Origin: Deltaproteobacteria bacterium
GTDB taxonomy: Bacteria > Desulfobacterota > Desulfuromonadia > Geobacterales > Pseudopelobacteraceae
Reading direction: 5' to 3'
DNA: 64,000 bases
Assembly (NCBI GenBank): GCA_021779135.1
Contig: JAJYBH010000001.1
Location: 1 to 64,000 of the forward strand
Shown here: piece after piece, positions 11,194 through 13,848 of the stretch
How the letters are laid out: each line of letters opens with the position of its first letter
How positions within the stretch are numbered: the first letter of the stretch is position 1
Program-made: the position numbers and the translations under genes
The notes under the pieces: generated by a model
Databases searched by the model: none
What the model was told of the DNA's origin: nothing
The model's input: the letters and a program-made list of their open reading frames with translations, nothing else

Positions 11194-12270
11194 ATGAACA
11201 CTCCCCTGACCATACTGCAGGTGATCTCGCAGCGGCATCTTTCCGGTGCGGAGCGGGTCTGCCTGATGCTTTCCGAGTCGCTGCAGCGGCGGGGGCACCG
11301 GGTGGTCCTGCTGTGCAAGAAGGATGCTGCCATGCTCGAAGAGGCGCAGCAGCGCGGCATCGAAACCCGCACGCCGGGGCTGTCGGGCAAGTTCAACCCC
11401 CTGGTGGCTTGGGGTATCCTGCGCATTGCCCGGGAAGTCGGAGCGGATCTGATCCACACGCACCTGTCAACCGCTTCCCAATGGGGAGGTGTCGCCGGCC
11501 GCCTCGGCGGCATTCCGGTTATTTCCCACGTTCACGCCATGAATTCGCGCTACTTTTTCATGCTGGCGGATGCCATGATCGCCTGCTCAGAAGGGGTGCG
11601 GCAGCATATCATCGGACAGGGTGTTTCCGCCGAGCGGATCGGAACGATCTACAACGGCATCGAATCAAAACGGCTGGAGTTTGCCGGCGATGCGGCAGGG
11701 ATCAGGTCTTCCCTGGGCATCGCCGCCGATACTCCGGCCATTGCCTGTATCGCGCACCTGGCCGATAAGAAGGGGCAGGCCGATCTGGTTACGGCGCTTT
11801 CACTGCTGCGGGATAAGTGGCCCGGGCTGCACTGCTTCTTTGTCGGTACCGGTGAAAACATGGACAGCCTGCGGAGCCAGGCGGAAGCGCTGGGTGTGGC
11901 GCGGCGGGCCGTGCTGCTGGGGTACCGCAGTGACGCGGTTGCGATCATGAACGCCATGGATATCATCATCCTGCCATCGCTGGGCAAGGAGGGGTTGCCG
12001 CTGGTGCTGCTCGAAGCGGCCCTGCTCGGCAAACCCGCCATCTGCAGTAACATACCCGGCAACAACGAGGTGGTCCTCGACGGCGTAACCGGCCTGCTCT
12101 TCCCACCCGGAGATGCCGCTGAGCTGGCCGCCCGGATCGATGGGCTTCTCTCGGATGGCGAACAGCGCGGGCGGATGGGAAGCGCGGCCAGAGAACGGGC
12201 CGGGAGGGAATTTACCATCGAAGCCATGACGGATCGAGTGGAGAATCTCTACCGTCGATTGTTGCAATAA
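11194..12270 (+). CDS. Glycosyltransferase family 4
   Basis: HLSGAERVCLMLSESLQRRGH…PSLGKEGLPLVLLEAALLGKPAICSNIPGNNEVV. Confidence 0.9.
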   Translation: MNTPLTILQVISQRHLSGAERVCLMLSESLQRRGHRVVLLCKKDAAMLEEAQQRGIETRTPGLSGKFNPLVAWGILRIAREVGADLIHTHLSTASQWGGVAGRLGGIPVISHVHAMNSRYFFMLADAMIACSEGVRQHIIGQGVSAERIGTIYNGIESKRLEFAGDAAGIRSSLGIAADTPAIACIAHLADKKGQADLVTALSLLRDKWPGLHCFFVGTGENMDSLRSQAEALGVARRAVLLGYRSDAVAIMNAMDIIILPSLGKEGLPLVLLEAALLGKPAICSNIPGNNEVVLDGVTGLLFPPGDAAELAARIDGLLSDGEQRGRMGSAARERAGREFTIEAMTDRVENLYRRLLQ

Positions 12271-12280
12271 GGGGCAGATC

Positions 12281-12308
12281 TTGGCTGGCTCTGCGTGTTC
12301 GATAATAT
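12281..12308 (+). promoter_or_regulatory. Candidate sigma70 promoter (TTGGCT-N16-TAATAT)
   Basis: TTGGCT 12281-12286, 16-nt spacer, TAATAT 12303-12308, upstream of the leader ORF. Confidence 0.4.
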
Positions 12309-12329
12309 CGTTGACGGGGATATTCCAGT

Positions 12330-12431
12330 ATGTTATTGAAATCAACCATGAAGATAGAACGTAATCTCATAGCAGCACGAGCTATCGGCGCCGCGGCGCG
12401 TAATGCCGCAGGTGTATCTGCCGCCCGCTGA
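12330..12431 (+). promoter_or_regulatory. Putative Ala-rich leader peptide ORF (MLLKSTMKIERNLIAARAIGAAARNAAGVSAAR*)
   Basis: 33-codon ORF with GGGGA upstream and 10 Ala codons, followed by a strong terminator and then an aminotransferase gene. Confidence 0.45.
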
Positions 12432-12460
12432 TCGTCGTTGTTTTCAAACGTATCGTACAA

Positions 12461-12489
12461 GCCATGGGCGGAAGTCCATGGCTTTTTTT
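12461..12489 (+). terminator. Rho-independent terminator/attenuator
   Basis: GCCATGG-gcggaagt-CCATGGC followed by TTTTTTT. Confidence 0.8.
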
Positions 12490-12543
12490 ATATTTCATCA
12501 CGAGATCCGCTCGATACAAATTTGAATTTGGGAGGTTGCAAAC

Positions 12544-13848
12544 ATGCGCGTCGAACTGGTACGCCCCGGAGCCGGGGAGCTGACGTACGAGATCAGAAAC
12601 ATCGTAAATGTGGCTGAAAAACTTCAGAAACATGGTGTCAAGATCAATTGGGAAAATATCGGCGATCCGATCGTCAAGGGCGAGGTCATCCCGGAGTGGA
12701 TGAAGGCGATCGTGGCCACGGCAGCCATGGATAATCATACCTGGGGCTATTGCCACACCCGCGGCGTGCTGGAGACCCGCGAGTTCATCTGCGAGACCAC
12801 CAACGCTCGAGGTGGCGCCCGGATTACCCCCGACGATATCATCTTCTTCAACGGCCTGGGCGATGCCATCGCCAAGATCTACGGTGCCTTGCGGCCCGAG
12901 GCGCGGGTGCTGATGCCGTCACCCTCCTACACCACCCACACCCTGGGTGAGATCGGCCACGCCCATGCCGCGCCGGCCCTGTTCCGGCTCAAGTCCGAGG
13001 ACCAATGGTATCCGGACCTGGATGACCTGCGCAACCACATCAAGTACAATCCCAATATCTGCGCCATCATGATCATCAACCCGGACAATCCGACCGGGAT
13101 GGTGTATCCGGAGGAGACCCTGCGGGAGATTGTCGATATCGCCCGGCAGAACGACCTGTTCATCATCGCCGACGAAGTCTACATCAACATCGTCTACAAC
13201 GGCCACAAGACGATGCATATCAGCGATGTCATCGGTGATGTGCCGGCCATCTCCCTGAAGGGCATCTCCAAGGAGTTCCCCTGGCCCGGGTCCCGCTGCG
13301 GCTGGATCGAGGTCTATAACGGCCATAAGGACGAGCAGTTCCGCAAGTATGTCAACCTGATCCTGACCGGCAAGATGAATGAAGTCTGCTCGACAACCCT
13401 GCCGCAGACCGTCATCCCCGCCATTGTACAGCACCCGGAATATGCGGGCTATCTGGCCGAGCGCATCGCCAGCTACGAAAAGATGAGCAACATTACCTAC
13501 GACTTCCTCAGCCAGGTGCCGGCACTACAGGTCAATCGCACCAACGGCGCCTTCTACATGGCAGTGGCCTTCAAGGATGGTCTGCTGAATAGCCGGCAAT
13601 CGCTGCCGATCGCCAATCCCGAGGTCCGGGAGCTGGTGCAGGGGCTGGTCAACCAGCCGGGTGTGTCGCCGGACAAGCGTTTCGTCTACCACATCCTGGC
13701 CGCTACCGGCATCTGCGTTGTGCCGCTCTCATCGTTCTCGACCCCGCTGCAGGGTTTCCGCGTGACCCTGCTGGAGAAGGACGAAAACGAGTGCCGCCGC
13801 ATCTACCGCACGCTGGCGGAGAAGATCGGTGAGTATCTGAATTCCTAG
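12544..13848 (+). CDS. Class I/II PLP-dependent aminotransferase (alanine aminotransferase-like, substrate uncertain)
   Basis: INPDNPTGMVYPEE, IIADEVYINIVYNG, SLKGISKEFPWPGSRCGW; RBS GGGAGG upstream. Confidence 0.85.
   Translation: MRVELVRPGAGELTYEIRNIVNVAEKLQKHGVKINWENIGDPIVKGEVIPEWMKAIVATAAMDNHTWGYCHTRGVLETREFICETTNARGGARITPDDIIFFNGLGDAIAKIYGALRPEARVLMPSPSYTTHTLGEIGHAHAAPALFRLKSEDQWYPDLDDLRNHIKYNPNICAIMIINPDNPTGMVYPEETLREIVDIARQNDLFIIADEVYINIVYNGHKTMHISDVIGDVPAISLKGISKEFPWPGSRCGWIEVYNGHKDEQFRKYVNLILTGKMNEVCSTTLPQTVIPAIVQHPEYAGYLAERIASYEKMSNITYDFLSQVPALQVNRTNGAFYMAVAFKDGLLNSRQSLPIANPEVRELVQGLVNQPGVSPDKRFVYHILAATGICVVPLSSFSTPLQGFRVTLLEKDENECRRIYRTLAEKIGEYLNS

Follow-up and report, generated by a model that had tools for sequence, protein, structure and literature searches.

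The locus raised the question of why the gap between a GT4 glycosyltransferase gene (ending at position 12270) and the aminotransferase gene downstream of it should contain a promoter followed by a short ORF rich in Ala and then by an intrinsic terminator. It lies in the window, the 64,000-nucleotide stretch of DNA, from a Geobacterales-like MAG, that was analysed. Leader-peptide attenuation is a textbook mechanism, e.g., for tryptophan and histidine, the classical examples being the trp, his, phe, leu, ilv, and thr operons of E. coli and Salmonella. As in such systems, we found here a short ORF rich in one amino acid and an intrinsic terminator between this leader ORF and the gene (Table 1). 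The original prediction was of ribosome-mediated attenuation at Ala codons, and our analysis supports it, as conservation across the class extends to the leader with its Ala codons, alternative pairing, and terminator, the pairing co-varies between lineages, and constrained folding reproduces the switch. We put at about 0.86 the probability that the region acts by ribosome-mediated attenuation of transcription, sensing charged tRNA-Ala and thereby controlling an aminotransferase whose product is probably alanine.

Table 1. Features of the putative alanine attenuator and its regulated gene, in window coordinates
Feature	Position	Strand	Basis or remark
Complete leader-peptide attenuator (putative)	12311-12491	+	Upstream of PRK06855-type aminotransferase
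-35 box TTGACG	12311-12316	+	TTGAC(G/T) aligned in orthologous leaders, 35-39 nt before leader ATG
-10 box TATTGA, 17-nt spacer	12334-12339	+	TA-rich hexamer aligned in orthologous leaders
Leader ORF MKIERNLIAARAIGAAARNAAGVSAAR, 27 codons + TGA, predicted leaderless	12348-12431	+	ATG 8 nt after -10
Element 1 of 1:2 anti-antiterminator, partner 12419-12442 in untranslated RNA	12371-12398	+	MFE of untranslated leader
Control region, Ala codons at 12372, 12375, 12381, 12390, 12393, 12396, 12405, 12408	12372-12410	+	Constrained folding
Covariance-model R1 match, 113 bits	12374-12488	+	R1 search
Element 2 CCGCCCG, last leader codons, antiterminator 5' strand	12421-12427	+	Folding, register test, inter-lineage coevolution
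3:4 intrinsic terminator with stem at 12459-12484 and U tract ending near 12491	12459-12491	+	Sequence and folding
Element 3 UGGGCGG, terminator 5' arm and loop edge, antiterminator 3' strand	12465-12471	+	Folding, register test, coevolution
RBS gggagg	12530-12535	+	Sequence inspection
PLP-dependent aminotransferase NF005334/PRK06855, regulated gene	12544-13848	+	745 bits, cut-off 443

The promoter had originally been placed at TTGGCT-N16-TAATAT, which is present at 12281-12308 but without conservation in orthologous leaders; we dropped it in favor of TTGACG-N17-TATTGA, the window's version of a promoter that aligns across orthologous leaders as TTGAC(G/T)-N16-18-TA-rich hexamer. Neither site was listed by a generic promoter scan of the window. 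Because the start codon at 12330 lies inside this conserved promoter, the 33-codon ORF proposed from it was rejected; the Ala-rich leader ORF itself stands, with its stop at 12429-12431 and all 10 of its predicted Ala codons, at a length of 27 codons. The sequence likewise bears out the RBS noted ahead of the aminotransferase ATG. Among the order-level leaders (the 82 strong matches within the order to covariance model R1, which has alignment A1 of upstream regions underlying it) the gap between -10 box and ATG is 6-11 nt, with a mode of 8, in 81, and a Shine-Dalgarno-like motif occurs in just three. Given the short gap and the scarcity of such motifs, the leader is probably translated from a leaderless mRNA. 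Outside the order a Shine-Dalgarno-like motif is found in 29 of 52 leaders.

It could be argued that the terminator merely ends the upstream glycosyltransferase operon, the Ala-rich ORF being a coincidence of GC-rich sequence and the aminotransferase promoter lying after the terminator; intrinsic terminators are commonplace between operons, and some relatives have the aminotransferase without any leader. The distribution of the block speaks strongly against this. Of the 57 genomes searched, the window's own among them, 56 gave a strong match to the aminotransferase (E < 1e-160). The promoter-ORF-terminator block was present in 18 of the 30 upstream regions fetched, with TTGAC(G/T), a TA-rich -10 box, an ATG that in nearly all of them lies 7-9 nt further on, an ORF of 27-30 codons (8-13 of them Ala), and then the terminator. 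Within the order R1 matched 91 of 141 genomes; for the class, order included, the figure was 137 of 243. Strong R1 matches sit upstream of a PRK06855-type aminotransferase. Most of the 40 loci fetched outside the order also have an Ala-rich leader and terminator before a PRK06855-type gene, an identity that was verified with NCBIfam for representatives of f6, f7, and f54. The last of these lineages belongs to another class and has diverged leaders such as MRMITRKLRTACPAIAINAAAAASARWPAVLLLGFIP that keep their Ala runs; a diverged form is also present in Geomonas and Citrifermentans bremense (e.g., MYTNSVTSRGSVHEAAAARPF). The upstream alignment that had been proposed as a check thus found leader, Ala codons, alternative pairing, and terminator conserved across the class. 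Since the same block precedes the aminotransferase behind differing upstream genes, and since both its Ala content and its pairing show conservation and covariation, we consider a mere operon end extremely improbable.

Several close relatives keep the aminotransferase and have no leader, including all three congeners searched (L002-L004), and in L023 (G032:C87) there is an apparent clean deletion running from the -35 box to just before the aminotransferase. Genome G022 (L005, L035) has two PRK06855 copies with the attenuator at the C8 copy only. At L112 (G042:C101:43500-45300, reverse strand) the attenuator lies about 1.1 kb upstream of the aminotransferase, separated from it by an open frame of ~320 codons. 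Four weak R1 matches (L113, L115, L116, and L118) were discarded as chance terminators adjoining Ala/Lys-rich genes.

The specificity of the leader for alanine was assessed in 37 divergent, non-redundant leaders (<75% identity), which also served as the coevolution sample. Ala makes up 34% of their residues, the next being Arg at 8.6%, and a run of at least three Ala occurs in 33 of the 37, such a run of any other residue being found in at most one. The other two sense frames have an Ala content of 4-6%. On the other side, GC-rich sequence favors Ala, and one of the antisense frames equals the sense frame in Ala richness, since GC-palindromic codons specify Ala on either strand; the direction of the leader therefore rests on the promoter and terminator. 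Leaders L088 (MSNIIRTNAQGARAISAAALTPQVYPLPRE) and L107 (MTTVNFPKSVRQERAMSAAAFTPQVYPRPY) carry a frameshift after the first Ala run, and are natural variants with only part of the control codons.

These sequences also bear on the idea that the leader is an arrest peptide, which would sense a ligand or translation stress via the nascent chain and not the charging of tRNA-Ala. In its favor, an ARAI.AAA core is conserved within the order at both peptide and codon level; in the core, at 12375-12385 of the window, the codons CGA (82/82 order-level leaders) and GCT (GCU in the RNA; 80/82) are nearly or wholly invariant, and both are uncommon in the window's CDSs. Against it, the peptide drifts across the class and Ala is the residue retained in the divergent peptides, all four Ala codons are in use (GCA accounting for 127 of 371 leader Ala codons vs 9.7% in seven window CDSs), and the regulated enzyme family suits alanine metabolism. 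An arrest peptide is accordingly very improbable in our estimation, and tRNA-Ala charging remains the preferred signal.

The strong terminator that had been predicted is evident in the sequence as a stem of 11 pairs with a GGAA loop and a T run after it, and so is the alternative pairing, CCGCCC at 12421-12426 being exactly complementary to GGGCGG at 12466-12471. Equilibrium folding of the window sequence always favored the terminator over the antiterminator; since the terminator is favored once its 3' arm exists, control must be kinetic. When folding of the nascent window RNA was constrained by a ribosome with its A-site on any of the Ala codons 12372-12408, all of them far enough upstream to leave element 2 free, the antiterminator formed with core-pair probabilities of 0.94-1.0. 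With the ribosome at the stop codon, where it masks element 2, or with no ribosome, the probability of the terminator was 1.0; in the latter case element 2 was held in the long 1:2 helix, so that in the model the untranslated leader also terminates. Model folding of the order-level leaders gave a similar picture: the terminator exceeded 0.5 in 80 of 82 without a ribosome and in all 82 with a ribosome at the stop codon, a stalled ribosome left at least five expected antiterminator pairs in 78/82, and element 2 was paired upstream in 67/82 when no ribosome was present.

From these results we propose a mechanism in which transcription would start at, or no more than about 2 nt from, the leader AUG, with ribosomes loading on the leaderless mRNA. 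When Ala-tRNA is ample, the ribosome would reach the stop codon and cover element 2, the 3:4 terminator would form, and transcription is predicted by folding to stop near 12490. When Ala-tRNA is scarce, the ribosome would stall within the control region, and the free element 2 could pair with element 3 before the terminator 3' arm is made, allowing RNA polymerase to read on by kinetic antitermination. Without a ribosome, 1:2 pairing would sequester element 2 and the terminator would form. On this model low Ala-tRNA would induce expression of the aminotransferase, and antitermination in cells would be kinetic.

The mutually exclusive terminator and antiterminator appear to be kept by coevolution between lineages. 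Across the window's own family the 8-bp antiterminator register is 87% paired, vs 27-47% for slid registers, but swapping partners within this family leaves pairing unreduced (P=0.88, covariation not significant), and the within-family signal is therefore one of conservation, not covariation; covariation inside Geobacteraceae alone was also not significant. Between lineages, the swapped-partner test on the 37 non-redundant leaders gave a duplex energy of -18.2 kcal/mol for own partners vs -15.3 kcal/mol with the terminator arms of others, with 33 of 37 residuals negative (z=-6.4; permutation P=5e-5, an approximate value because related sequences are not fully independent). The paired strands are CCGCCC/GGGCGG in the window, CUGCCCGC/GUGGGCAG in relatives, UACCCGC/GUGGGUA in Geobacteraceae, and CUGUCCAU/AUGGACAG elsewhere in the class. 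A dinucleotide-shuffle test of single leaders was superseded by the swapped-partner test, as the GC-richness of the segments made its results weak for individual leaders, 13 of 42 falling below 0.05.

Two further explanations were considered. The first is a T-box or metabolite riboswitch in place of a leader-peptide system; in its favor, an amino-acid enzyme is here under terminator-based control. Rfam covariance models gave no match in the window at the gathering threshold and chance-level E-values only, the best sub-threshold matches being to unrelated sRNAs far under their cut-offs, and the conserved unit is an Ala-rich ORF; a riboswitch thus verges on the implausible. The second is regulation in trans by the terminated leader RNA and/or the peptide, on the pattern of rnTrpL/peTrpL of S. 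meliloti, with attenuation secondary. Such a role would fit the predicted leaderless start, which rnTrpL also has (PMC7298713), and the invariance of the ACGAGCUA core at the nucleotide level beyond coding need. We nonetheless judge it unlikely, as throughout the class the block accompanies a single gene, and its antiterminator coevolves with the terminator, which would be needless for a pure sRNA; it is in any case compatible with attenuation. The ACGAGCUA core may tentatively be given a second RNA- or translation-level function besides alanine attenuation, though we lean against this; examples would be a programmed pause that keeps a ribosome on the leaderless message in step with RNA polymerase, or an action of the terminated leader RNA in trans. 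The core is also kept in Geobacteraceae, where its 1:2 pairing partner is missing and would not account for the invariance. GCACGAGCTAT occurs once in the whole genome.

Regarding the regulated enzyme, the next-best family after PRK06855 was alanine aminotransferase PRK08363, below its equivalog cut-off, and the best PDB matches were 1xi9 (a putative transaminase) and 4cvq (the glutamate-pyruvate aminotransferase AlaA); these are the nearest to the window aminotransferase, yet all are distant. No match to alanine dehydrogenase (TIGR00518) was found in the window's genome, G000; several leader-bearing relatives have one. The specificity of the leader, the nearest relatives of known character, and the genome's want of an alanine dehydrogenase match together suggest that the aminotransferase probably makes alanine.

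Our best reading is that alanine-tRNA is a new amino-acid specificity for a classical ribosome-mediated attenuator, and one that is widespread in the class. Rfam 15 has no matching family, and we found no earlier report of an alanine attenuator in the searchable open-access literature, to which our search was limited; an alanine-sensing leader-peptide attenuator of predicted leaderless design thus appears to be previously unreported, its priority being uncertain for that reason. If the reading is correct, alanine joins the amino acids sensed by leader-peptide attenuation, and the uncharacterised PRK06855 aminotransferases of Geobacter-type bacteria gain a likely function in alanine synthesis. 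It would also offer dozens of natural variants for studying the evolution and loss of an attenuator, including leaderless vs Shine-Dalgarno versions, frameshifted leaders, and clean deletions, and cultured genera such as Geomonas and Oryzomonas make it directly testable.

Among R1 matches outside the order we also observed Tyr/Phe-rich leader ORFs (e.g., MKNFSGRTNSYYYYYYAFGLPAAG and MTANQSRAYLYYYYYYTKRRGLLMD) with terminators (L211, L213, L215-L220, and L223-L225), several of which precede aromatic biosynthesis genes (DAHP synthase, aroK-aroC). These are apparent tyrosine/aromatic attenuators with a similar antiterminator; they come from the same phylum as the window and resemble its leader in their terminator and in a CTGCC(C)/GGGCAG-type element close to where the leader ends, and they differ in their Tyr/Phe codons and aromatic biosynthesis genes.

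The predicted leaderless start at the AUG has a counterpart in S. meliloti trpL, where the transcript begins with the start codon (AUG) of the leader ORF and the leader mRNA is thus leaderless; rnTrpL/peTrpL differs in having Trp codons, trp genes, and known trans-acting roles (PMC7298713). The actinobacterial leader-peptide attenuators of trp, trpS, ilvB, leuS, and cys resemble ours in the comparative-genomics evidence of a leader peptide and alternative hairpins, and a word search of that paper found no mention of an alanine attenuator (PMC1262725). Like the classical attenuators, the window's element has a short ORF whose control codons would be those for the amino acid of the pathway, 1:2, 2:3, and 3:4 helices that overlap, an element 2 located where the leader ORF ends, and an intrinsic terminator ahead of the gene; unlike them, it has alanine as the control residue and a single aminotransferase gene, and lies in a Desulfuromonadia-like class.
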